Source: Acidobacteriota bacterium
GTDB taxonomy: Bacteria; Acidobacteriota; Terriglobia; Acidiferrales; UBA7541
DNA: 34,027 nt
NCBI GenBank assembly: GCA_028877145.1
Contig: JAGWOX010000011.1
Span: 1-34,027 of the forward strand
Direction: 5' to 3'
Of the stretch, positions 13,481 to 33,247 are shown piece after piece (the stretch's first letter is position 1; every line of letters starts with the position of its first letter). The notes under the pieces are model-generated. The model was not told the origin of the DNA and did no database searches. It saw only the letters and a program-made list of their open reading frames with translations. The translations under genes were made by a program, and so were the position numbers.

Positions 13481-15268
13481 GTGCCCGATCCTCAAACCGA
13501 ATACGCCACCCGCCTCGAAGCCCGCCTCCAGGCGGTCGAGCGCCACGAGAGCGGCCACATCCGCGTCGGCAATTCGAAGCTGGCCACGCTGGTGGCCGGT
13601 CTCACTCTGGCGTGGATTTCGCTTGCCCGGCACTGGGTTTCTTCCTACTGGCTCGTGGCGCCCGCGGCGCTCTACATCGCCCTGGCCGTATGGCACGAAA
13701 GAATTCTCCGCGCGCGCACGCTGGCCGAGCGCGCCGTCGTCTTCTACCGTCAGGGCATCGCGCGGATTGAGGACCGCTGGCCGGGGCACGGAAATCCCGG
13801 CGACCGCTTCCGCGACGAGAAGCACGTGTACGCCGAAGACCTCGATCTGTTCGGTCGCGGCAGCCTTTTCGAGCTGCTCTGCACCGCGCGCACGCCCATG
13901 GGCGAAGCGCGCCTCGCACTTTGGCTCCTAGCCGCTTTGCCCGTTCCCGCCATTCTCGAGCGGCATGCAATGGTCTCCGAGCTGCGCGAGAAACTGGATC
14001 TCCGCGAGGATCTCGCTCTCGTAGGGGAAGACCTTCGCGCAAGCTTCAATCCGGAAGCGCTCGCGAAGTGGGCGGAATCGCCGCGCGTTCTCCCATCTTC
14101 TTTCTGGCGCGTAGCGGCCCTGGCGCTAGCGCTACTTGCCGTCGGCACGCTCGCCTGGGGAGCACGCACGTACGACTATCTGCCGCTCGTCATCGTGCTC
14201 GCCGTCGAGGCGCTGTTCCGCTACGCTTTGAAATCTCGCGTAGAGGCCGTCATCACAACGACAAATTCGGACGCGCAGGGACTCGCCCTCTTCGCGGCCA
14301 CGTTGAAGCGTCTCGAACGGGAATCCTTCTCCTCGCCGCGCCTGCGGGCCTTCGTCGACGCCCTGAATGAGGGTGGCACGCCCGCTTCGTCCGCCATGGC
14401 CCAACTGGCGCGGATCGCCTACTGGATCGAATCGCACGACAGCTTCATGGTCCGTCTGCTCGATATCCCGCTGCTGATCACCGTTCAGGTCGGCTTCGCG
14501 GCCGAAGCGTGGCGCGGCCATTCCGGTCGCCACGTCCGCTCGTGGATCGACGCCGTCGGTGAAATGGAAGCGCTCGTCTCGCTAGCGGCGTATTCGTACG
14601 AGCATCCCCGCGACCGCTTCCCGGAATTCGCCGATCCTTCCGCCGGCCCGCTCTTCGACGGCCAGCAACTCGGTCATCCGCTCATCGAGCAGGCGCGCTG
14701 CGTTCCGAACAGCGTCCGCCTCGATCGCGACAACCGCATCCTGATGGTTAGCGGCTCGAACATGTCGGGGAAGAGCACGTACCTGCGCGTCGCCGGCGTG
14801 AACGCGGTGCTGGCCTTGGCCGGCGCGCCCATCCGTGGCCAATCGCTGCGCCTCTCTCCCCTCGTTCTGGGCACGCGCCTCAGAACCACCGATTCGCTGC
14901 AGGAGAGCCGCTCCGGCTTCTACACGGAAATCCTGCGCATTCGCCAGGTCTTCGACCTCACCTCGGGCGAACTTCCCGTTCTATTCCTCTTCGATGAGCT
15001 TCTCGAGGGCACGAATTCGAAGGACCGCAGAATCGGCGCCGAGGGCTTGCTCCGCGCCTTCATCGAGCGCGGCGCGATCGGCATCGTCACCACACACGAT
15101 CTCGCGCTAACGGAAATCACCCACGAACTGGGCGCCGCCGTTTCCAACGCCCATCTGCAGGATTATGTCGAGAACGGCAGCATGCGCTTCGATTACAAAC
15201 TCCGCCCCGGCGTAGTAGCCCGCAGCAACGCCCTGGAGCTGATGCGCCTGGTAGGCCTGCAGGTGTAA
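13481..15268 (+). CDS. MutS-related ATPase with N-terminal membrane segments
   Basis: A 595-residue protein whose C-terminal 200 residues form a MutS-family ABC ATPase: Walker A GSNMSGKST (425-433), the signature region DSLQESRSGFYTEI, Walker B LFLFDELLEG (Asp505, Glu506) and the switch IVTTHDL. The N-terminus lacks the mismatch-recognition domain of MutS. Instead it has hydrophobic segments near 35-70 and a second pair near 208-240, so it is probably membrane-bound. The middle resembles the MutS lever/core helical region. The start is a GTG at 13481 behind GGAGG (13470-13474). Such proteins are annotated as MutS-like DNA mismatch repair proteins, but a repair role is doubtful without the recognition domain and with membrane segments. 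It is convergent with the TPR-barrel gene. Confidence 0.85.
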   Translation: MPDPQTEYATRLEARLQAVERHESGHIRVGNSKLATLVAGLTLAWISLARHWVSSYWLVAPAALYIALAVWHERILRARTLAERAVVFYRQGIARIEDRWPGHGNPGDRFRDEKHVYAEDLDLFGRGSLFELLCTARTPMGEARLALWLLAALPVPAILERHAMVSELREKLDLREDLALVGEDLRASFNPEALAKWAESPRVLPSSFWRVAALALALLAVGTLAWGARTYDYLPLVIVLAVEALFRYALKSRVEAVITTTNSDAQGLALFAATLKRLERESFSSPRLRAFVDALNEGGTPASSAMAQLARIAYWIESHDSFMVRLLDIPLLITVQVGFAAEAWRGHSGRHVRSWIDAVGEMEALVSLAAYSYEHPRDRFPEFADPSAGPLFDGQQLGHPLIEQARCVPNSVRLDRDNRILMVSGSNMSGKSTYLRVAGVNAVLALAGAPIRGQSLRLSPLVLGTRLRTTDSLQESRSGFYTEILRIRQVFDLTSGELPVLFLFDELLEGTNSKDRRIGAEGLLRAFIERGAIGIVTTHDLALTEITHELGAAVSNAHLQDYVENGSMRFDYKLRPGVVARSNALELMRLVGLQV

Positions 15269-15382: not shown

Positions 15383-15413
15383 GTCATCCTGAGCGATGCG
15401 AAGGACCCCGATA
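15383..15413 (+). repeat. GTCATCC-type dispersed repeat, copy C
   Basis: GTCATCCTGAGCGATGCGAA then GGACCCCGATA. One substitution in the core relative to copy A. It lies about 30 bases after copy B, in the same 183-base gap between convergent genes. Confidence 0.65.
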
Positions 15414-15451: not shown

Positions 15452-17128
15452 TCATCGCGAAGTCGTCTCGTAAAACGCTCCCGACCCTGAATGCAGATCG
15501 CGCCCGTAGGACACGAGCACGACAATGTCCCCAAAGATACGGAATTTGCATTGCAGCCCCGGGTCCCACAGCCAGAACCGCGAGCCGAAAACGCCCGATG
15601 GATCGGTGTCCTTGCCGATATCGACGAACGGACCGATCTGAATGGACAAAAACGGATTCTTGTAAACGGTCTTGTCAGTTTCCCAGTTCCACAGCACGAA
15701 CTCGCGCCCGAGCGGCGCGTTCCCTTTGAATCCTTCGCGCGTGCCGCTGATCCCGCGCACCCACAGGTCGTTGTCGCGCTCGACGCCCAACTGATACAGC
15801 TCGTCGAGCGTCGCGTTGCCGAAATTTCGTCCGATGCGAAAGCGCAGCGTGGTCTGGTAATCGTCGCCGGAAGGTTTCGGAAACCAGTCGAGCTCCAGCG
15901 AACCCTCGATCCCCCCAAACGCGCCAAGCCCCGCCGCGAAATTCTTTCCGAAACTGCCCCGGACCCAGGACGTCAGCGTGAGCCGCCGGTCGGGAATGTC
16001 GATCAGCCTGTAATCGGTCCGCATGCGATATTCGAGCGATCCGGTGTTGGTGAAAAAAAAGGTATATGCGGGCAAGACGTCGCGTACGTTCCGGAACCGC
16101 CGATACGCGTAGACCAAATGAGCCTGCCACGACCATCGGCCGTTGACCACCGATCGGAATTGCGGACCGAATTCAATTCGTTCCATATTCAGATCGGTGA
16201 GCGGTGCCGTCGAGCCGCGAAACGTCCTGCTCAGGTCCCAGTTTTCATTGCGCGCGTCGGTATAGAGTCCCGCCCGCAAGCTCGGGTTATCCTCCACCGG
16301 CGTCGAAACCGAAGCCCAAACGCGGCGCTTGTTCTCGTCCCAGCGGAAATACGAGAGCAGGTTGATCCCCTTGCCGCCCAGGTTGTAATACTCGGGATCG
16401 ACCGCGATGGGTATATCCCTGAAAATCGACGCCAGCGCTTCGAATTTGTTTGATCCGAATCCGTTGCGCTCGGTGGAAACGAAATCCACGGTATAGGAGC
16501 TGTTGTCGGGCACCAGATCGAAGTGATACATCGGGAACAGGTTCAGGTTGTCGATCCGCGCCTCGGTCGTGCGAAGCTGCGACAGGCGCAGCGTGCTGAG
16601 CGGCGAGAAGGCGAACGCCCGCTGCAGGATCTCGTTTTTGAGCCGCGGCTTCGGCTCCATGGAGATGTCGGTAATGTGCGGTTTCCCGATCTTGTTCCAG
16701 TTATCGAGAGCGGCATCGAGATTTTCCGTGAGTAGGTAAATCGTCGCCAGAAAGTTGCGCGCGTATGTGTCGCCGGGATCGAGCGCGAGCGCCTGCCGCA
16801 GCTCGGACTTGGCCGAATCGTAATTTCTGGTCTTGTAATCGACGCCGGCCAGCTCCACCAGGAATCGCTCATCTCGCGGGGCCTTCGCATGTCCCGCCTC
16901 GAGCGCCGCCCGCGCCTGCGGCCAGCGTTGGAGTTTTGCCAGCGCCATTCCGAGATAGAGATCGAGTTCGGGTGGGTTCCCCGGGGAAGGAGGAACCAGC
17001 TTGACCAGTTCCTCGTAGCGGCCTGCTTCGTAGAGTTGACGGGCTTGTGCGGCGGTGGCCGGCTTCTCGCTGGCTTGCGCGGGTAGATTGCCTGGAAACA
17101 AAAGCAAAAACAACAACGGCAAAATCAC
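15452..17128 (-). CDS. Exported TPR protein with C-terminal Omp85-like outer-membrane barrel
   Basis: A 558-residue exported protein. The signal peptide is residues 1-19 (VILPLLFLLLFPGNLPAQA, GTG start). Residues about 25-150 are three to four TPR repeats (EAGRYEELVKL, LQRWPQARAALEAG, DSAKSELRQALALDPGDTYAR, LTENLDAALDNW). A linker with LRLSQLRTTEARIDNLNLF resembles the end of a POTRA unit. The remaining 350 residues are rich in alternating aromatic strands (YYNLGGKGINLLSYFRWD, REGFKGNAPLGREFVLWNWE, GPFVDIGK) and end in FYETTSR, like a surface-antigen/Omp85 barrel. The GTG start overlaps the TGA of the C39 peptidase gene as GTGA, implying translational coupling. An upstream frame to 17368 lies inside that gene and is rejected. 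The barrel class is inferred from motifs, not from an alignment. Confidence 0.75.
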   Translation of the reverse strand: MILPLLFLLLFPGNLPAQASEKPATAAQARQLYEAGRYEELVKLVPPSPGNPPELDLYLGMALAKLQRWPQARAALEAGHAKAPRDERFLVELAGVDYKTRNYDSAKSELRQALALDPGDTYARNFLATIYLLTENLDAALDNWNKIGKPHITDISMEPKPRLKNEILQRAFAFSPLSTLRLSQLRTTEARIDNLNLFPMYHFDLVPDNSSYTVDFVSTERNGFGSNKFEALASIFRDIPIAVDPEYYNLGGKGINLLSYFRWDENKRRVWASVSTPVEDNPSLRAGLYTDARNENWDLSRTFRGSTAPLTDLNMERIEFGPQFRSVVNGRWSWQAHLVYAYRRFRNVRDVLPAYTFFFTNTGSLEYRMRTDYRLIDIPDRRLTLTSWVRGSFGKNFAAGLGAFGGIEGSLELDWFPKPSGDDYQTTLRFRIGRNFGNATLDELYQLGVERDNDLWVRGISGTREGFKGNAPLGREFVLWNWETDKTVYKNPFLSIQIGPFVDIGKDTDPSGVFGSRFWLWDPGLQCKFRIFGDIVVLVSYGRDLHSGSGAFYETTSR

Positions 17129-17706
17129 ATGGGTTCTTTCGGCACCGCCAGCAGGGTCCAGTCGCCTGTCACGTTCCACTCCGTCATGAACCGCTGCCGG
17201 GTCAGGCGAAACAGCTTCCGCTGGGCCGGGTCGTTGACGAAAACGAAATCGTTCTCCCAGTCGACTCCTACGACCAGAAGGTAATGCAGCGGTCCCTTGT
17301 CCCCCCACGGCCCCACGCCGACGATCAAGGGGCGGCCCTTCAGCAGGTTCTTGCTCAAGTCCTGCCACTGCCCCGTGAAGGTGAATACGCGAAAGCCGGA
17401 ATCGCGCAGGTAGGCGGCCATGTCGGTATTCTCGATGCCGATGTCCCGAGGATCGAGTTGCCGCTCGATGGATTCCTGATCTGCGCTTGGAGAGATCGGC
17501 TTGTGCATCTGCTTCTCCCAGTAGTGCAGCACCATCGCGAGCACAGCCGCCCCGCAGGAGTTGTTCTTTTGCTGCTGGAAATAAGGCACGTCGAGCTGAA
17601 CGCCCGCAGAGGCCTCATGGGAAGGCCCCGCCATCGCTCGTGGTTCGGCCAACGCCAAAGCCGCGCAGGCAACAAGCGCCCACCCCATCGCAACTCGCTT
17701 CCGCAT
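17125..17706 (-). CDS. Exported C39-like cysteine peptidase, PA2778-type
   Basis: A 193-residue protein with a signal peptide (MGWALVACAALALA ... AMA) and a C39-like papain-fold domain. The active-site Cys is in NNSCGAAVLAMVLHYW (Cys51). The His is in PLHYLLVVGVD (His141). NDP near 158-160 provides the Asn/Asp. C39 domains process leader peptides in bacteriocin exporters, but this is a free-standing periplasmic copy. I recall the Pseudomonas PA2778 family as a similar peptidase with an attached TPR region, encoded next to PA2779. Here the TPRs are in the next gene. The ATG at 17706 sits four bases after AAGGAGG; the preceding GTG codon at 17709 is the alternative. It follows the PA2779-like gene after about 10 bases. 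The substrate is unknown. Confidence 0.82.
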   Translation of the reverse strand: MRKRVAMGWALVACAALALAEPRAMAGPSHEASAGVQLDVPYFQQQKNNSCGAAVLAMVLHYWEKQMHKPISPSADQESIERQLDPRDIGIENTDMAAYLRDSGFRVFTFTGQWQDLSKNLLKGRPLIVGVGPWGDKGPLHYLLVVGVDWENDFVFVNDPAQRKLFRLTRQRFMTEWNVTGDWTLLAVPKEPM

Positions 17707-17716
17707 CACCCCTCCT

Positions 17717-18145
17717 TCAGGCTTTGACGATGAGGATGACCACGACCGCCGTGGCCAGGGCGATGATAATGTACGTTATTTGCTGGTTCGTCAACGATCC
17801 GGCTTGAAATTCCTTTTGCGCCTTGTCGACACGCGCGGCAAGGCTGGCCAGCTCGTCCCGTGAAAGCTGCGGGATCGCGCGTTGCACCACGCTGTAATTC
17901 ATGCCCACCTTTTTCAGCTCCTGGCGGGCGCGTGGCGTCGAGAGGAATGCCTCCACTTTCGCCTCGTTGGCCCGGCGCGCCGCTGCTGCCGCGGCCACGT
18001 CTTTTTGGAGATCGGCGGTGGATACGACGTGGTGCTCGGACTGGGGCGTGGCCGTTTGCGCCAGAGCGGACGGAGAAAGCGCCGGGGGAAGGATCATCAG
18101 CGCGGTCATCAGCGAAACGAGAAGAGGTTTGCCGATCGATTTCAT
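17717..18145 (-). CDS. PA2779-like exported protein with C-terminal membrane anchor
   Basis: A 142-residue protein. Residues 1-30 are a signal peptide (LLVSLMTALMILPPALSPSALAQ). A helical, Ala-rich middle follows, containing VEAFLSTPRARQELKKVGMN and IPQLSRDELASLAARVDKAQ. The C-terminus is a single membrane segment, ITYIIIALATAVVVILIVKA. The order (signal peptide, short helical domain with a L.R.EL..LA..ID-like motif, tail anchor) is what I recall of the PA2779 family (DUF6627), found beside a C39-like peptidase gene as here. The ATG at 18145 follows AAGGAGGCTCG; an upstream frame to 18193 has no ribosome site. It is the first gene of a three-gene operon. The function of the family is not known to me. 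Confidence 0.78.
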   Translation of the reverse strand: MKSIGKPLLVSLMTALMILPPALSPSALAQTATPQSEHHVVSTADLQKDVAAAAAARRANEAKVEAFLSTPRARQELKKVGMNYSVVQRAIPQLSRDELASLAARVDKAQKEFQAGSLTNQQITYIIIALATAVVVILIVKA

Positions 18146-18148
18146 CGA

Positions 18149-18190
18149 GCCTCCTTCTAAGAAGGTGGGTTGGTGAGCCGGCGGCTCACC
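18149..18190 (-). promoter_or_regulatory. Leader hairpins over the ribosome site of the PA2779-like operon
   Basis: On the minus strand the leader holds two adjacent hairpins. The upstream one pairs GGTGAGCCG (18172-18180) with CGGCTCACC (18182-18190), a perfect 9-base arm palindrome. The second pairs CCTTCT (18153-18158) with AGAAGG (18160-18165) and overlaps the AAGGAGG ribosome site just before the ATG. No U-tract follows the first hairpin. The arrangement could control translation of the operon or stabilise the mRNA. Confidence 0.5.
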
Positions 18191-24710: not shown

Positions 24711-27377
24711 CTATTCGCATCTGAGCGCCACCATGGGATCGCTGCGCGACGCGCGCCAAGCCGGCAAAACGCACGCGCCAATCGTGGCGAACATCATGAT
24801 GACGAATGCCAATGCGAACGAGAGCGGGTCTCGCGGGCTGACGTGGTAAAGCATATTCGCCGCAAACCGCACGGAGGCGAATGCTACCACCGCACCGGCC
24901 AAGATGCCTGTCAGAGTCAACACGATGGTGCGCGACAACACGTGCCAGAGAAGATTCCCAGAAGTCGCGCCGAGAGCCATGCGCAACCCGAGTTCGCGTC
25001 TGCTCTGCGAAACTGCGTAGGAGATCATGCCGTAGAGCCCCACCGTGGCGAGCAGAAGCGCCAAGCCGCCCAGCACAGTCAGCAGGCCGACACCGGCTTT
25101 TTGCGCCGAAGTTGATCGATCCAATTGATCCTGCATCGTAATGACCGGATAGGTTGCAAGGCCGGGATCCAGCGCACGGATCTCGTTCGAAAGGACGGGT
25201 GCCATGACTTGGGCTGGCATGGAAGTGCGGATAATCAGGCTGGCGCGCACCGACGGATTCTGGAGCAGAGGCACGTAAAAAAACGGTTTGGGCGCTTCGG
25301 AAACCGAATCATACTTCGAAACTTTCGCCACGCCGACCACCCGCATCCATCGGCCATTTACCTGCAGGCGCTGCCCAACGGGATTTTTGCCGTTCCAAAA
25401 TTGCGTGGCCATTCGAGCGTTGACGACGGCTACAAGTGCTGCGGTCTTGTCGTCGGCCCGGGTGAAGTCACGTCCGGAGACAAGGGGTATGCCCGCTGTG
25501 GCAACGTAGCCGGGGCCAACCTCGTTGTAATCGACCTCAGGCTGTTCGTTTGGCGGCGGCACATAGCCTTCGACTGCGATCAGAGCTGAGGAGGGAGGAA
25601 CCAAGCCCAACGGAATGTATCCCACGAAGGCCGCTCCTCCTACGCCAGGAATTGACCGGACACGTGCGGTCAATTGCTTCTGAAAATTTTCGGCGCGCAC
25701 CACATCGTACCCGGAACCGAACAAGTCCACCGGAGCTACCAGAACATCCCGGGTCGAAAAACCGGGGCTGGTGTTCTGCATGGCGCGCAGACTCCGAAGA
25801 AGCAGAAAGGCGCCGAAGAGAAGGACGAAGCTCAACGAAACCTGAACGAGAACCAGGCCGGAGCGCAGCCAGGATCTACTCTGGCCGCTGACAACTCCCC
25901 CCATTTCGGTCTTGAGCGCCGCGGCCAAGTCGAGCTTGCTGGCCTGACTTGCGGGTGCCAGGCCAAACAGGATTGTCGCGAGCACACACACGCCGGCGCT
26001 CAGAGCCAGCACGCGCCAGTCGATTTCACCCGGTAAATAAGGAACGACCGACGTCCGCGGGAAAAACAGCACGAGCGCATGGCGGGACCAGTGAGTGACA
26101 AGGAGTCCGCCGCCAGTCGCCAAGGCCGATAAGATCAAGCCTTCCGTTAGAAGCTGCCGGACCAGACGCCCGCGAGCCGCGCCAAGCGCCAACCGCACGG
26201 TCATCTCATGACGGCGCAAGAATAAACGGACCAGTAACAGATTGCCAACGTTTGCGCAGGCGATCACGAGCACGAAAAGCACGACGACGAGCATCATCTC
26301 GAGGGTGGGGCGCAATTCCCCGGCTTTGTTGAAAGGAGTGAGCCACAGCGGGAGGAGCTTGACGTCGCGGCCGCGGTCGATTTCCGGGTAGGTAGCCGCA
26401 AGCCGCGCGGCAACAGAAGAAATTTCCGCCTGCGCCTGCGCGCGGCTCACTCCGGGCTTCAGTTTTGCGAAGCCTTCCACCCAACGCGCGCTCCGGTCCT
26501 CGAGTTTGTAGCCGCCGCGCTCAAAAACTTCCTGCATGGAAGCCGGAACCCAGAATTCGATGGCCCAGCCAACGAAAGTTCCGTAGAAGCCCTCCGGCGC
26601 GACGCCAATGATGGTGTGCTGCACGCCGTTGAAACTCTGCGTCTTTCCGACGATTGCCGGATCGCCCTTGAAACGGTCTTGCCACATTCGATAGCTGATC
26701 ACCACCACGGGGTGGCTGTTGCGTCCCGCGTCTTCACCGCGCTCGAACCCGCGGCCGAGAATGGGACGCACTCCGAGAGCGGAGAAATAATTTGCGGAGA
26801 CCATGCTGCCAATCGCGCGGTCGGCGCGCCCACCGACGTTGAGCGAGGCGCTCATGATCTTGTCGCCGATGAAGGAATCCACCAGCTTGCAGTTTTTCTG
26901 CAAATCCAGGAAATCGGGCCACGAAAGGTCGCTATCGCCAGGAACGCCGCGTGATTCGCCGATGAGGGCGAACATCCGGTCCTGATGGGCGACCGCCGGA
27001 AATGGCCGGAGAAGAAGGCCTTCGATCCAACTGAATACGGCGGTGTTGGCGCCGATGCCGAGCGCCAGAGTCAGCACGGCGACAATCGTAAATGCGGGAT
27101 TCTTCCGCAGCATGCGGAGGGCATAACGAATGTCTTGCAGCAGAGTTTCGAAGAAGAGCATTCGTCGCTCGGCCCGAAAGTCCTCCTTGATCGCCTCTAC
27201 AGCGCCAAATTTCAGGATAGCCCGGCGCCGGGCCTCGTCAGGCGATAAACCGGCGCGAAGATTCTCGGCGGTTTGCAGGGCGAGATGTTCCTCGATCTCC
27301 TCCCGCAATCGTTTATCTTCCCGCCACCAGAGTGCCGAGTTGGCCAGGCGCGCGAGGAACCGCCTCAGGAATCTCAA
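24711..27377 (-). CDS. ADOP-type duplicated MacB/FtsX permease
   Basis: An 888-residue integral membrane protein of the ADOP family (acidobacterial duplicated orphan permease). The N-terminal 70 residues are the charged helical leader typical of the family (REDKRLREEIEEHLALQTAENL ... SPDEARRRAILKFG). Next comes LLQDIRYALRMLRKNPAFT and the first membrane segment (IVAVLTLALGIGANTAVF), a MacB-like periplasmic domain, three membrane segments, and then a second periplasmic domain and membrane set ending near MVALRCE. No ATP-binding domain is present; orphan refers to the missing ATPase partner. The start is a TTG at 27377 behind GGAGG, overlapping the PadR stop as TTGA. The frame extends 20 codons upstream, inside padR, and is not needed. 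The transported substrate is unknown. Confidence 0.9.
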   Translation of the reverse strand: MRFLRRFLARLANSALWWREDKRLREEIEEHLALQTAENLRAGLSPDEARRRAILKFGAVEAIKEDFRAERRMLFFETLLQDIRYALRMLRKNPAFTIVAVLTLALGIGANTAVFSWIEGLLLRPFPAVAHQDRMFALIGESRGVPGDSDLSWPDFLDLQKNCKLVDSFIGDKIMSASLNVGGRADRAIGSMVSANYFSALGVRPILGRGFERGEDAGRNSHPVVVISYRMWQDRFKGDPAIVGKTQSFNGVQHTIIGVAPEGFYGTFVGWAIEFWVPASMQEVFERGGYKLEDRSARWVEGFAKLKPGVSRAQAQAEISSVAARLAATYPEIDRGRDVKLLPLWLTPFNKAGELRPTLEMMLVVVLFVLVIACANVGNLLLVRLFLRRHEMTVRLALGAARGRLVRQLLTEGLILSALATGGGLLVTHWSRHALVLFFPRTSVVPYLPGEIDWRVLALSAGVCVLATILFGLAPASQASKLDLAAALKTEMGGVVSGQSRSWLRSGLVLVQVSLSFVLLFGAFLLLRSLRAMQNTSPGFSTRDVLVAPVDLFGSGYDVVRAENFQKQLTARVRSIPGVGGAAFVGYIPLGLVPPSSALIAVEGYVPPPNEQPEVDYNEVGPGYVATAGIPLVSGRDFTRADDKTAALVAVVNARMATQFWNGKNPVGQRLQVNGRWMRVVGVAKVSKYDSVSEAPKPFFYVPLLQNPSVRASLIIRTSMPAQVMAPVLSNEIRALDPGLATYPVITMQDQLDRSTSAQKAGVGLLTVLGGLALLLATVGLYGMISYAVSQSRRELGLRMALGATSGNLLWHVLSRTIVLTLTGILAGAVVAFASVRFAANMLYHVSPRDPLSFALAFVIMMFATIGACVLPAWRASRSDPMVALRCE

Positions 27378-27721
27378 CGCGAATCCTCCGCTTTCAATTC
27401 GAAGAACCGTTCGATGATCTCCGCCGTTTGCTCCCAATCCCGGGTCTCCGCCTGCAACTGCTTTCGTCCCTCACGGGTCAGCCGGTAGAACCGTGCCCGG
27501 CGATTATTCTCCGACGCGCCCCATTCCGATGCGATCGCGCCTTCCTGCTCCAGCTTCAACAGCACGGGATAGAGGGTGCCTTGATTCACCGAGAGCAGAT
27601 CTCCACTGATCTGCTCGATTCGCCGCGCGATTCCGTACCCGTGCAGAGGCCCCTGGACATCCAGAGTCTTCAGGACCATCAGTGCCAACGTGCCTTGTCG
27701 AACGTCCGTTCTCTGTTTCAT
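27374..27721 (-). CDS. PadR-family transcriptional regulator
   Basis: A 115-residue winged-helix regulator. It shows the PadR core VRQGTLALMVLKTLDVQGPLHGYGIARRIEQ, then the wing region LSVNQGTLYPVLLKLEQEGAI and SEWGASENNRRARFYRLTREGRKQL, with a C-terminal dimerising helix. The ATG at 27721 is the standard start for this subfamily, about 50 codons inside the longest frame. It is translationally coupled to the ADOP permease by a TTGA overlap, a pairing I know to be frequent in acidobacteria. It is divergent from the adaptor genes, so it may act on both sides of the 263-base gap. No palindromic PadR site (ATGT-ACAT type) was evident to me. Confidence 0.92.
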   Translation of the reverse strand: MKQRTDVRQGTLALMVLKTLDVQGPLHGYGIARRIEQISGDLLSVNQGTLYPVLLKLEQEGAIASEWGASENNRRARFYRLTREGRKQLQAETRDWEQTAEIIERFFELKAEDSR

Positions 27722-27945: not shown

Positions 27946-27984
27946 TCAACGCATCCACGGTCGGGCGGCTGGCGGGTGGCTGGT

Positions 27985-29340
27985 ATGAATTTTGAATCCG
28001 AAAAGAACGCGACATTAGCTGGGAATCCGGCTGCCCCTCGGCAGGGCAGTTCCCGTCTCCAGAGACCCACGACACGCGCTCAATCGGGTTTTTCCACCGC
28101 TGGTGTAATCGCGATTGTTTTCGTTCTGCTTTCTGCGGCATTCCTTTTCTACATTCTCAGCCGCCCCGCGCGTTCCGTTTCCGGAAAAGAAAACGTTTCC
28201 ACCGTGACCGCCCGGCGCGCGGATTTCCTTCGCGTCCTCCGCATCAACGGCACCACCGAAGCCCTCCACTCGCGCCCTGTCCTGGCTCCAAGACTCGCCG
28301 GCGCACATCTCGGCTCGATGGTCATCACCGCGATCGCGCCCGCCGGCGCCCACGTAAGGAAAGGCGATCTGCTCGTCGAATTCGATCGCCAGCAGCAATA
28401 CCAGGATTTTCTCGACAAGAAGGCAAGTTATCTCTCCTTCGCCGGCCAAGTGGCCCAGAAAGTCGCCGCCGAGCAGGCCGCCCGCGCCCAGGATGACGCC
28501 GGGCTGAAGCAGGCCGAGGATGCTCTCGCAACCGCGCGCCTCGAAGTGAAGAAGAACGAGATCCTTTCCCGCATCGACGCCGAAATCAACGACGAGAAGC
28601 TCCAGGAAGCCGAGGCCACGCTCAAACAGTTGCGCAACACCTACAATCTTAAGCGCCAGTCTGCCGCCGCTGAAATTCGCAGCCTCCAGATTCAGCAGGA
28701 CCGCGCGCGGCAGACCATGCTCTACGCGCAGGCCAACGCCCAGAAAATGGTGATCCACTCGCCGATGGACGGCATCGTCGTGCTGAACAACATCTGGCTG
28801 AACGGCAGAATGGGCCACGTGCAGGAGGGCACGGAAGTCCGGCCGGGCGTGGCGTTCATGCGCGTGGTCGATACTTCCCAAATGGACGTGCGCGCGAAAA
28901 TCAATCAGGAAGACCTGCCGTTTCTGCGTGTGGGCCAGACCGCTGCCGTTCACCTCGACGCCTATCCCGGCTTGTCGTTTTCCGGCACGCTCGAACAGCT
29001 CGCCCCGCTCGGCGATGCCGGCGAGTTCTCCAAGAAAGTCAGGACGTTCGACGGAATTTTCTCCATCCAGGGCAGCGATCCCAGGCTGATGCCCGATCTC
29101 TCCGCCGCGGTCGACGTCCGATTGCATAGCGAGAAGAACGCGCTCATCGTGCCCGTCGAGAGCGTCGCGACGGGCAAGGATGGTCCATACGTCTGGCTCA
29201 AGAGCGGCAAGGGGTTCGTGAAGCAGCCGGTGCGCACCGGCGAGGAAAACGATCTGGACATCGTCATCGAATCCGGCCTTTCGCCCGGCGCGATCATCCG
29301 TAAATACGCCGGCGAATCTGAAGGTGCCTCCGGAACATGA
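27985..29340 (+). CDS. Membrane-fusion (HlyD/AcrA-type) adaptor 1
   Basis: A 451-residue periplasmic adaptor. A cytoplasmic tail of about 35 residues is followed by one membrane helix (VIAIVFVLLSAAFLFYIL). The lipoyl-like half-motif is near VITAIAPAGAHVRKGDLLVEFD. A long coiled-coil hairpin follows (about 130-250, with EVKKNEILSRIDAEI), then the second lipoyl half (MVIHSPMDGIVVLN), and then beta-barrel and membrane-proximal domains. Adaptors connect an inner-membrane transporter to a TolC channel. The ATG at 27985 is preceded by GGTGG; a GTG at 27976 is the alternative. It overlaps the next adaptor by ATGA. It is the first gene of the operon. Confidence 0.88.
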   Translation: MNFESEKNATLAGNPAAPRQGSSRLQRPTTRAQSGFSTAGVIAIVFVLLSAAFLFYILSRPARSVSGKENVSTVTARRADFLRVLRINGTTEALHSRPVLAPRLAGAHLGSMVITAIAPAGAHVRKGDLLVEFDRQQQYQDFLDKKASYLSFAGQVAQKVAAEQAARAQDDAGLKQAEDALATARLEVKKNEILSRIDAEINDEKLQEAEATLKQLRNTYNLKRQSAAAEIRSLQIQQDRARQTMLYAQANAQKMVIHSPMDGIVVLNNIWLNGRMGHVQEGTEVRPGVAFMRVVDTSQMDVRAKINQEDLPFLRVGQTAAVHLDAYPGLSFSGTLEQLAPLGDAGEFSKKVRTFDGIFSIQGSDPRLMPDLSAAVDVRLHSEKNALIVPVESVATGKDGPYVWLKSGKGFVKQPVRTGEENDLDIVIESGLSPGAIIRKYAGESEGASGT

Positions 29341-30590
29341 GCGAGCGCGACCACAAACGGCGTAGGAAGCGCGTCACCATCGCGGCGATTGCCGTCGTGC
29401 TGACCGGGTCGGCAGGCTTCTGGGGCCTGCGCCTGGCGCACTCCGCCCCCTCGATTCCCACGGCCGTCGTGCGCCGCGGAGCCTTTACAGGCTGGCTCGA
29501 TCTGCGCGGCCAGATCGTGGCGCGTCAATCGGTCATCATCGCGGCGCCATACCGGATCGACAATATGCGGATTTTGAAGCTGCTGCCCAACGGCACGCGC
29601 GTGAAAAAGGGCGACATGCTCGTCGAGTTCGACTCCACGCAGCTTCACAGCGATCTCGCGCAGAATCGCGTCGGCTTGAAATCGGCGCAGGCGGACGTGG
29701 AACAGCAGCGCGCCAAGGGACGCCTGACGGAAGAAAAGGACCTGACCGACGTCATGAAAGCGCGCTACGACGTGCAATCCGCCGAACTCGACGCGAGCAA
29801 GGCCGAAATCCTCTCCCAGATTGAGGGAGACGAGGCGAAACTGAAGCTCGCCGATGCGCGCCAGAAACTGGCCGCCGCCGAAGCCAAGCTCAAGGCCGAT
29901 CACGCTTCCGATGGCGCAGCGGTCAAGGACAAGGAGCAGGTGCGCGACAAGTCCCTCTACCAGGTCCAGCTGGACGAGCACAGCCTCACCCAGCTCACCT
30001 TGCGCGCCCCCGCCGCTGGCATGTTCGCTCTTCTGAGTACGCATTGGACCTCGCCGACCTCCGGGCCGCAGCCCTTTCGCCAGGGCGATCAGGTTTGGCC
30101 CGGCGCCGCCATCGCCGAATTGCCGGATCTCTCCACGCTCGAAGTCACCGCGCGAGTCGACGAAGTCGAGCGCGGCCGATTGCAGGTGGGCCAAAAAGCG
30201 AACCTGCGTTTCAGCGCCATTCCGGACCGCGCGTTCAAGGGCCACATAAAGTCGATCAGCACGCTTGCCAGCGTGGATTTTTCCGAAGGCTGGCCGCCTC
30301 CGCGGAATTTCACCGTGTACATCGCTCTCGACCAGAGCGATGAGCGGCTGCGTCCCTCCATGAGCGGCACCGTGCGCGTCGCCGTCGATCGCGTCGAGAG
30401 CGGCATTCTCATTCCCTCCGAGGCGCTATTCCACAAGAACGGCGAGACCGTGGCCTACGTTCTCCATGGTTCAAAATTCGAAGGGCGCAAGATTGCCGTC
30501 GAGCAGCAGAGCGGCGGTCAGGTTCTGGTGGCGAAGGGATTGCAAGTCGGAGAGCGGGTGGCTCTGAAAAATCCTGAGCCTTCTCGCTAG
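29337..30590 (+). CDS. Membrane-fusion (HlyD/AcrA-type) adaptor 2
   Basis: A 417-residue adaptor, paralogous to its neighbours. Its basic N-terminus (HKRRRKR) is followed by one membrane helix (IAAIAVVLTGSAGFWGL). The lipoyl half-motif is LKLLPNGTRVKKGDMLVEFD. A coiled-coil hairpin of about 150 residues contains DASKAEILSQIEGDE, the same local pattern as adaptor 1. The second half (LTLRAPAAGMFALL) and the barrel region follow. The ATG overlaps the previous stop as ATGA, indicating coupled translation. It carries no enzyme signature. It probably works with the permease and outer-membrane protein encoded downstream. Confidence 0.88.
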   Translation: MSERDHKRRRKRVTIAAIAVVLTGSAGFWGLRLAHSAPSIPTAVVRRGAFTGWLDLRGQIVARQSVIIAAPYRIDNMRILKLLPNGTRVKKGDMLVEFDSTQLHSDLAQNRVGLKSAQADVEQQRAKGRLTEEKDLTDVMKARYDVQSAELDASKAEILSQIEGDEAKLKLADARQKLAAAEAKLKADHASDGAAVKDKEQVRDKSLYQVQLDEHSLTQLTLRAPAAGMFALLSTHWTSPTSGPQPFRQGDQVWPGAAIAELPDLSTLEVTARVDEVERGRLQVGQKANLRFSAIPDRAFKGHIKSISTLASVDFSEGWPPPRNFTVYIALDQSDERLRPSMSGTVRVAVDRVESGILIPSEALFHKNGETVAYVLHGSKFEGRKIAVEQQSGGQVLVAKGLQVGERVALKNPEPSR

Positions 30591-30599
30591 AAGCCGGCG

Positions 30600-31949
30600 A
30601 TGGAAACACGAACAAGCGGAAGACCGAAAGCGAAATCGGCTGTCACGCTGCTCCTTCTGGCGGGCGGCTTGATGGCGGCCGCTCTGTTGTCCGCCAGTCT
30701 GGCCGGTTGCACGCTTCGCGGCGCCGTCCAGCCGGGCGATGCGCCCATCCCCGTCGCGCAGGTCAAGCGCGTCGATTTCCGGCTCCAAGTGCATGCCACC
30801 GGCGAGTTGCGTTCCACGCATACGATCCCTCTAACCGCGCCTCCCATCGGCGGCGGCGCGCTGCAAATCATTCGCCTGCTTCCCACGGGTACCGCGGTGA
30901 AGGCCGGCGACGTCGTCGTCGATTTCGACCCGAGCGAGCAGGAATATAACCTGGCGCAGAGCCAGTCCGATATCAATGAGGCCCAGCAGGAGATCTCCAA
31001 GGCGAAAGACGATGCCGCGGTTCAGTCCGCCGAGGATCAGACCGCGCTGCTGACCGACCAGTTCGCCGTTCGTCAGGCGCAACTCAAGGTCGGCGAGAAC
31101 GAGCTGGTAAGCGCGATTGACGCCAAGAAGAATATCCTCGCCTTGGACGAGGCGAAACGCGCCCTCGCCCAGCTCCAGCAGGATATGCACTCTCACCTCG
31201 CTTCGAATCAGGCCGCCATCACGCTTGCCCAGCAGAAGCTCGACAAGGCGCGCCTCTCGATCAGCGAGGCCCGAAAAAATATCGCCAGCATGGAGGTTCG
31301 CGCGCCCATCGCCGGCCTTGTCGTCGTGAGCGAAAACTGGGAAGCGAGCGGCGGAATCTTTTTCAGCGGCATGACCCTGCCCCAATACCAGATTGGCGAT
31401 CAGGTGGGGCCGGGCTCTCAGGTGGCGGAGCTGATCGATCTCGACCGCCTCGAAATCGCCGGCCAGGTCGCGCAGGCCGACCGGACGAATGTTCAGGAAG
31501 GAGACCCGGTCGAAATCCGCGTCGATGCGATTCCCGGCGCCACGTTCACCGGCAAAGTGGCTAGAGTGGCAGGCATCGCTGCGGGCGGTTTTTTCGGTCC
31601 TGGTGTGAATGCCAAGGTGGATATGACCGTTCGCTTCGATCGCCCGGATCCTCGGCTGCGGCCCGGATTTTCCGCGCAGCTCGTGGTCCTGGGCAAGCAT
31701 CTCCAAAACGTTCTGACCGTGCCGCGCGAGGCGATCTTCGATCTCACCGGCACGCCGAAGGTGTACGTGAAAAGCGGAAGCGGCTTCGAGTCGCGCGACG
31801 TGAAGATTCGCTATCTCACCGAAGCCACCGCCATCATAGACGGCCTCGCGCCACGAACGGAGGTCGCCCTGGTCAATCCCGAGCAGCAGAACGCCGGACC
31901 GGCAAAGCCGGCCGCCTCGGCTCCCGTACTCGGCCCGGGAGGACGCTGA
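30600..31949 (+). CDS. Membrane-fusion (HlyD/AcrA-type) adaptor 3, lipoprotein
   Basis: A 449-residue adaptor. Unlike the other two, it has a lipoprotein signal peptide (LLLLAGGLMAAALLSASLAGC) with a good lipobox LAGC, so it is probably lipid-anchored. It repeats the adaptor layout: IRLLPTGTAVKAGDVVVDFD, then a long coiled coil with GENELVSAIDAKKN matching the EILSxIxxE position of the others, then MEVRAPIAGLVVVSENW, and then the barrel and C-terminal domains. It follows adaptor 2 after 9 bases with no strong ribosome site, and the permease start is 2 bases after its stop. Three consecutive adaptors in one operon is unusual. Confidence 0.88.
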   Translation: METRTSGRPKAKSAVTLLLLAGGLMAAALLSASLAGCTLRGAVQPGDAPIPVAQVKRVDFRLQVHATGELRSTHTIPLTAPPIGGGALQIIRLLPTGTAVKAGDVVVDFDPSEQEYNLAQSQSDINEAQQEISKAKDDAAVQSAEDQTALLTDQFAVRQAQLKVGENELVSAIDAKKNILALDEAKRALAQLQQDMHSHLASNQAAITLAQQKLDKARLSISEARKNIASMEVRAPIAGLVVVSENWEASGGIFFSGMTLPQYQIGDQVGPGSQVAELIDLDRLEIAGQVAQADRTNVQEGDPVEIRVDAIPGATFTGKVARVAGIAAGGFFGPGVNAKVDMTVRFDRPDPRLRPGFSAQLVVLGKHLQNVLTVPREAIFDLTGTPKVYVKSGSGFESRDVKIRYLTEATAIIDGLAPRTEVALVNPEQQNAGPAKPAASAPVLGPGGR

Positions 31950-31951
31950 TC

Positions 31952-33247
31952 TTGATTTCCCGATCGCTCCCGGCTGAATCGCGTTCCCTCCGCCGCACGC
32001 TCGCGCAGTGGCAGCCCGATCTGCGGCTCGGGTTCGATAACCTCCTGCTCCACAAGCTGCGCTCGCTGCTCACGATGCTCGGCATGATTTTCGGCGTGGC
32101 CGCGGTCGTTTCCATGCTCTCGATCGGCGCGGGCGCGCAGCAGAAAGCGATGGCGTTCATCGAGCAGCTCGGCGTGCGCAATCTCATCGTCGAGGCCCGC
32201 GAAGCCAAGGACGAACAGGATCTCCAGAAGGTCCGCCGCATCTCACCCGGTCTCACGCTCGAAGACTATCGCGTTCTGAGCGGGCACGTTTCCGGAATCG
32301 CCGCCTCCTCTCCCCGCAAGCGTTTCACACCCACCAAGCTGATACCGAAGCCGCAGGGCGCCGCTCCGGTCGTCTACGGCGTCAATCCGAGCTATCCCGA
32401 AATCGAGGGCCTGAGCGAGGTCGAGGGACGCTTCTTCGATTCCGCCGAAAACGCCCGCGGCGCGCCGGTCTGCGTTCTCGGCTCCGGCGCCAAGGCCGCG
32501 CTCTTCGGCGCGGAGCCGGCCGTGGGTCGTTATGTCAAGGTCGACGACCAGTGGTTCCACGTGATCGGCGTCGCCGCGCCGCAGCTCTCCGCCGAAGGCG
32601 GCGTCGAAGGCGTGCCCCAGGAAGACCTGAACAATCTCATCTACGCGCCGGTGAACTCGGTGTTGTTCCGCCTCCAGGATTCGCAGAGCGAGTTGCACGA
32701 CGAGATCGACGGCATCTATCTCCGCCTCGCCTCGGCCACGCAAAGCCCCGAGGTCGCCGCCGTCGTCCGCGGCGTTCTCAATACCTCTCATCACGACGCC
32801 GGCGATTTCGACGTGATCGTTCCCGCCGAATTGCTCGCCCAGCAGCAGCGCACCGAGCGCCTGTTCAACACCATCATGGTCGCGATCGCCTCGATCTCGC
32901 TGCTCGTCGGCGGCATCGGCATCATGAACATCATGCTGGCGAGCATTCTCGAGCGGACGCGCGAAATCGGCGTGCGCCGCGCGGTCGGCGCCCGGCAGAG
33001 CGATATCGTCCGGCAGTTCGTCATCGAAGCGGTGCTGATCTCCTTTGCCGGCGGCCTGCTTGGCATCTTTTTCGGCTTTGGCATGTCGCGTCTGATCGCC
33101 TGGGTGGCCGGCTGGTCGACGATCGTCACGATCAGCTCGATCCTGCTCGCCTTCCTCGTGTCGATTTCCGTGGGTGTGATCTTCGGGGCGTATCCGGCGG
33201 TGAAGGCCTCGCGACTCGATCCGGTGGAAGCCATCCGTTACGAATAA
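31952..33247 (+). CDS. MacB-type ABC transporter permease without ATPase domain
   Basis: A 431-residue inner-membrane permease of the MacB/FtsX type. It has four membrane segments: SLLTMLGMIFGVAAVVSMLSIG near the N-terminus and three near the C-terminus (AIASISLLVGGIGIMNIML, AVLISFAGGLLGIFFGFG, ILLAFLVSISVGVIFGAYPA). A large periplasmic domain lies between. It ends in the family motif KASRLDPVEAIRYE. MacB itself carries an N-terminal ATPase; here it is absent, so a separate ATPase is expected, perhaps downstream beyond the window. The start is a TTG at 31952, eight bases after GGGAGGA (31937-31943). A MacAB-TolC-like export function is likely; the substrate is unknown. Confidence 0.92.
   Translation: MISRSLPAESRSLRRTLAQWQPDLRLGFDNLLLHKLRSLLTMLGMIFGVAAVVSMLSIGAGAQQKAMAFIEQLGVRNLIVEAREAKDEQDLQKVRRISPGLTLEDYRVLSGHVSGIAASSPRKRFTPTKLIPKPQGAAPVVYGVNPSYPEIEGLSEVEGRFFDSAENARGAPVCVLGSGAKAALFGAEPAVGRYVKVDDQWFHVIGVAAPQLSAEGGVEGVPQEDLNNLIYAPVNSVLFRLQDSQSELHDEIDGIYLRLASATQSPEVAAVVRGVLNTSHHDAGDFDVIVPAELLAQQQRTERLFNTIMVAIASISLLVGGIGIMNIMLASILERTREIGVRRAVGARQSDIVRQFVIEAVLISFAGGLLGIFFGFGMSRLIAWVAGWSTIVTISSILLAFLVSISVGVIFGAYPAVKASRLDPVEAIRYE

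Follow-up and report, generated by a model that had tools for sequence, protein, structure and literature searches.

A conserved gene trio in Acidobacteriota, joining a PA2779-like protein, a C39 peptidase and a TPR-POTRA-Omp85-type protein, that looks like an envelope protein-processing or export device

The window, a stretch of 34,027 nucleotides, carries three tightly coupled minus-strand genes (15452-18145) that encode a PA2779-like protein, a C39-family cysteine peptidase and a TPR-barrel protein. The trio is conserved across the phylum and, judged by sequence, looks like an undescribed protein-processing or export device. Our proposal, held with about even confidence, is that it forms a dedicated envelope processing device, wherein the C39 peptidase would free the PA2779-like protein, and the TPR-Omp85 partner would receive, insert or export it, or be gated by it. 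New here is an [A/G]-G motif that stands ahead of the membrane helix of the PA2779-like proteins and tracks the presence of the C39 peptidase.

Architecture of the three-gene operon

The locus belongs to an Acidobacteriota genome (G000, contig C96), and its features are collected in Table 1. A first, sequence-only reading had described a minus-strand trio with a gap of about 10 bases and a GTGA overlap, and those coordinates are exact: 10 bases lie between the stop of the PA2779-like gene and the C39 ATG, and the overlap joins the C39 and TPR-barrel genes. An AGGAGG is found upstream of the PA2779-like ATG.

Table 1 Positions of the trio genes and their features in the window.
Feature	Position	Strand	Details and basis
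PA2779/DUF6627-like gene	17717..18145	-	142 aa; ATG at 18145, stop end 17717
Predicted Sec signal peptide, residues 1-30	18056..18145	-	Sequence MKSIGKPLLVSLMTALMILPPALSPSALAQ, judged by eye
Ala115-Gly116, proposed C39 cleavage motif ahead of membrane helix	17798..17803	-	Homologue alignment
C-terminal hydrophobic helix, residues 123-140, then basic residue	17726..17779	-	Sequence ITYIIIALATAVVVILIVKA; hydrophobic in all homologues
C39-family cysteine peptidase gene, secreted	17125..17706	-	193 aa; ATG at 17706, stop end 17125
C39 catalytic Cys51	17554-17556	-	Homologue alignment
C39 catalytic His141	17284-17286	-	Homologue alignment
C39 catalytic Asp159	17230-17232	-	Homologue alignment
GTGA overlap, C39 stop and TPR-barrel start	17125..17128	-	Sequence; identical overlap in loci L002 and L003
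TPR-POTRA-Omp85-type barrel gene	15452..17128	-	558 aa; GTG start at 17128, stop end 15452
TPR domain, residues ~26-146	16691..17053	-	Pfam TPR_19 1.7e-8, over cut-off; helices in model
Single POTRA, residues ~150-222	16463..16681	-	Beta-alpha-alpha-beta-beta in low-confidence model; profile comparison
Omp85-type beta-barrel, residues 226-558	15455..16453	-	14 strands predicted; profile comparison, top PDB matches BamA/TamA
WVRGISG, counterpart of Omp85 loop-6 [VIL]RG[FY] motif	15743..15763	-	Alignments and position relative to last five strands

The PA2779-like protein consists of a signal peptide, a helical domain and a C-terminal membrane helix, the anatomy expected of the tail-anchored periplasmic protein that had been suspected at this position. 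It scores 37.4 bits (E 2.4e-9) against the NCBIfam family PA2779_fam (NF033919), so missing the curated cut-off of 40; relatives in the same set pass this cut-off, and the window protein is a near member only. Pfam DUF6627 is matched by 21 of the 32 aligned family members.

The second protein had been read as a free-standing C39-like peptidase with Cys51 and His141. It exceeds the cut-offs of both Pfam Peptidase_C39_2 (53 bits, cut-off 24, E 7.1e-14) and Pfam Peptidase_C39 (42.7 bits, cut-off 22, E 6.3e-11), and the two catalytic residues are present in 39/39 homologues, which bears this assignment out. Asp159 is found in 33/39, all six exceptions being of the barrel-less C39-TPR type, and the oxyanion Gln45 is conserved, being invariant in 17 aligned sequences and visible in the alignment of 39, one column ahead of the position counted there. 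Against the NCBIfam model for PA2778-type C39 proteins (NF033920) the window peptidase scores 42.7 bits, below the cut-off of 150. That model describes a single C39-TPR protein, and the C39 and TPR parts of the window cover it jointly, split over two proteins. The NCBIfam search also gave a weak FapD match, and a plasmid search with the C39 peptidase returned only three distant C39s.

For the third protein, Pfam gives no barrel match, PF01103 included, which leaves about 410 residues after the TPRs unrecognised; searches of the barrel against Pfam, NCBIfam and PDB sequences returned TPRs or chance matches and nothing else. An hhalign comparison of its profile against 30 aligned Omp85 (PF01103) proteins of Acidobacteriota gave a probability of 97.2% (E 4.6e-11) over 365 collinear columns, against 0.1% for TonB-dependent-receptor barrels and 0.4% for a reversed profile, used as controls. 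Taken separately, the POTRA reached 93.6% and the barrel 84.2%. The alignment of 17 relatives contains a POTRA-like segment, and an L/V-R-G/A loop ahead of the last five strands that is followed by GPFxDTG. Searched over the genomes, the family profile finds weak matches to known Omp85 proteins at the places that PF01103 detects, and the fused relatives described below give sub-threshold Pfam Omp85 and POTRA matches at the expected places.

Two AlphaFold models of the TPR-barrel protein, built from six sequences only, reach modest confidence (mean pLDDT 58 and 59.5; pTM 0.40 and 0.58). The second has a beta-alpha-alpha-beta-beta POTRA, at low pLDDT, and 14 barrel strands. With the same modest confidence, nine strands are predicted ahead of the long loop and five behind it, five being the number in Omp85, and a poorly modelled stretch sits where the one or two extra strands needed for 16 would fall. 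In a PDB fold search with both models, Omp85 proteins, BamA and TamA among them, made up nearly all of the best matches, at TM-scores that are low overall, as expected of partial models. Profiles and fold search together support the TPR, POTRA and Omp85-like barrel first proposed for this gene, and indicate that the predicted barrel is a divergent Omp85 relative and no Pfam member. As the window protein has no PF01103 match, we use the wording 'Omp85-type' only.

Some further features of the window lie around the trio. A perfect hairpin, GGTGAGCC-GCC-GGCTCACC (~18172-18190), separates an MscS-like gene from the PA2779-like gene; the 151-base gap that contains it folds better than shuffles (z -3.0), and there is no T run behind the hairpin. 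The short element TCGCTCAGGATGAC is present at 15383-15396 and at seven further places, mostly on the minus strand, giving eight observed against 0.5 expected with at most two mismatches. On the plus strand, a MutS-like protein (13481-15268) has domain V, a weak match to domain III and an N-terminal half with hydrophobic stretches. Also on the plus strand, three HlyD/CusB-type membrane-fusion paralogues stand in a row and are followed by a MacB-like permease (27976-33247); this adaptor-gene triple is unusual, and a further MacB/FtsX protein is encoded at 24711-27437 on the minus strand.

Conservation, fusion and co-occurrence

The order PA2779-like, C39, TPR-POTRA-Omp85 recurs at 16 loci, with identities falling to about 30% (the window, L002-L006, G141, G188, G112, G257, G203, G273, G007, G026, G400 and G333). 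This recurrence is far beyond chance, and the conserved gene order anticipated from the window alone is thereby confirmed. The PA2779-like gene is non-adjacent but present elsewhere in the same genome in G242, G024, G050 and G221. Among the loci compared, no neighbours other than the trio itself are conserved, and one cyanobacterium and one archaeal MAG searched for the system gave no match.

Joint action of peptidase, TPR and barrel had been suggested from their linkage, and this linkage proves tighter than was proposed, as C39, TPR, POTRA and Omp85 parts are fused in a single frame in 11 genomes, each time adjoining a PA2779-like gene (G143, G285, G175, G014, G245, G231, G269, G360, G367, G374 and G385). 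The three fused proteins placed in a tree form one group (100/99).

We see the full barrel in 21/297 genomes. The PA2779 family is present in 20 of these 21 compared to 12 of the 276 others, with a Fisher p of 7e-22 that is descriptive, since related genomes are not independent. Most of the PA2779-positive, barrel-less genomes examined have C39 and TPR in one protein beside PA2779, so that the TPR-peptidase fusion of the Pseudomonas version also holds in this phylum. Because C39-TPR and PA2779 are found without any barrel, the barrel would appear to be dispensable for the core reaction. The TPR and the PA2779-like protein are the parts common to most layouts, which suggests that the TPR binds the PA2779-like protein.

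The [A/G]-G motif and its link to the peptidase

Of the 25 PA2779-like proteins aligned, 24 have a glycine just ahead of the C-terminal helix. The [A/G]-G pair is invariant in those with a C39-bearing locus: the split clade has A-G with a variable next residue, and the fused clade has a true Gly-Gly. C39 peptidases are known to cut after double-glycine-type motifs, with G-G/A/S as canonical sites. The motif-less exception is G005 (L155 9195-11191, G005:C164), in which the PA2779-like/TPR-Omp85 pair is kept and C39 is absent, and the correlation of motif loss with peptidase loss is drawn from this one genome. A genome-wide search of G005 for relatives of the trio C39 gave just one marginal 32-residue match (E 9e-4) in an 1803-aa frame, and one other genome in the class, searched for further C39-less relatives near G005, gave no match. 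The G005 locus is a natural loss case.

Other layouts vary around the same motif. G289 (L186 4830-5672, G289:C2) has a stand-alone C39 and a short PA2779-like protein whose helix is preceded by VVGG, with TPR and barrel absent nearby, and could be a minimal enzyme-substrate pair. At a locus of G334 (L173 12193-13773, G334:C21) the Omp85 part is present with its N-terminal TPR and C39 apparently missing or degraded, through either a degraded gene or an assembly gap; the nearby PA2779-like genes keep AG despite this apparent loss. In G064, PTG stands ahead of the helix and C39 lies on another contig.

Taken together, the alignments make it likely that the C-terminal [A/G]-G and membrane helix of the PA2779-like protein are the C39 target. 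A look for short double-glycine-leader proteins nearby had been proposed; no separate cargo of this kind was found, and the sole conserved neighbour is the PA2779-like protein. The original idea of a peptidase feeding a barrel holds for anatomy and linkage, but its target has shifted to a membrane-held PA2779-like partner, beside the barrel.

On the reading we prefer, the PA2779-like protein would be exported by Sec and then anchored in the inner membrane via its C-terminal helix. At the membrane surface, the secreted C39 would cut behind the conserved [A/G]-G, setting the helical periplasmic domain free; we infer this release because of the motif-C39 correlation, the double-glycine specificity of such enzymes and the FapD precedent. 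Docking of the domain would be provided by the TPR of the Omp85 (or fused) protein, and the POTRA-Omp85 barrel may then insert the domain in the outer membrane, pass it across or be gated by it; a signalling role of the freed domain is a further possibility. That the domain is exported is likewise a conjecture from sequence, and least certain is that, once freed, it is the cargo.

The PA2779-like protein may instead be an inner-membrane tether or regulator, whose cutting switches the barrel or releases a C39-TPR-barrel complex, the true substrates being envelope proteins encoded elsewhere. We consider this unlikely, although PA2779-like proteins are small and helical, lack obvious cargo-like features and are found with the TPR whether or not barrel and C39 are there; for the analogous FapD, too, the target is unsettled (PMC5557850). 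The genomes of one genus have 2-4 PA2779-like copies each, a many-to-one pattern that would be expected if a single enzyme acted on several substrates, and this suits a substrate better than a regulator. Substrates elsewhere are also disfavoured by a search of nine genomes for other proteins with the C-terminal signal, which gave weak, unconvincing matches only and no second protein class; most genomes tested have one such signal per genome.

Less probable still is a reaction of reverse polarity, in which the 25-residue hydrophobic C-terminal peptide would be the product, cut like a double-glycine peptide and sent outward via the Omp85 protein, and the helical part would act as its leader. C39 enzymes normally liberate the C-terminal part, the fused clade has GG, and upstream of the site there is an LSxxELxxL stretch reminiscent of double-glycine leaders, for which the consensus is LSxxELxxIxGG. 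However, this stretch is about 11 residues too distant from the site. In its length and basic end the C-terminal part resembles a membrane anchor, its conservation is among the lowest in the protein, and a Sec signal is present instead of an ABC exporter.

Very improbable is a polysaccharide exporter built of TPR and barrel, like PgaA, BcsC or PelB, that has a peptidase as its neighbour. The TPR and barrel layout, a weak TPR match to PgaA, and BcsC among the fold matches of the first model speak for it. Against it, both the POTRA and the barrel resemble Omp85 in profile comparison and fold search, the lack of any conserved neighbour outside the trio means that there is no conserved glycosyltransferase, and a C39 fusion has no role in such exporters.

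Comparison with known systems

The trio can be set against four described systems. The first is the PA2778/PA2779 pair of Pseudomonas and others (NF033920/NF033919; DUF6627), in which C39 and TPR likewise adjoin a small protein with a signal peptide and a C-terminal helix. Here, by contrast, the peptidase has a gene of its own, the TPR belongs to a protein with a POTRA-Omp85 barrel, and the scores fall under the curated cut-offs. The pair is already named in NCBIfam, where the curators' notes may already suggest a substrate relation, and we found no functional paper on it in the open literature. This unexplained pair now gains a concrete, testable candidate substrate and cleavage site.

With the Omp85/TpsB superfamily (BamA, TamA, FhaC, PlpD) the third protein shares the succession of POTRA and Omp85-type barrel, as well as an FxDxG-like strand and an RG-like motif in loop 6. 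It differs in having one POTRA with a TPR ahead of it, a tie to a C39 peptidase and a barrel undetected by Pfam. Ten Omp85 subfamilies were described by Heinz and Lithgow 2014, in whose main text neither TPR nor C39 appears (PMC4104836), and we found no description in the open literature of the C39/PA2779 pair united with an Omp85 barrel. The superfamily would thus gain a C39-TPR architecture.

GlyGly-CTERM proteins, which a partner protease cleaves (PMC3237569, PMC6219818), resemble the PA2779-like protein in their C-terminal Gly motif, membrane helix and basic end. That partner, rhombosortase, is an intramembrane serine protease, whereas the candidate here is a soluble cysteine peptidase.

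The Fap functional-amyloid system offers a parallel for the peptidase, as FapD is a Sec-exported periplasmic C39 that works with the outer-membrane barrel FapF and is required for secretion through it (PMC5557850). The FapF barrel is trimeric, 12-stranded and autotransporter-like, whereas that of the window is Omp85-like; its profile and fold matches to Omp85 do not fit a FapF-type trimeric barrel. After Fap, the trio would be the second case in which a periplasmic C39 peptidase is linked with an outer-membrane barrel, and if cleavage does feed the barrel, it would represent a new way of coupling proteolysis to outer-membrane transport.
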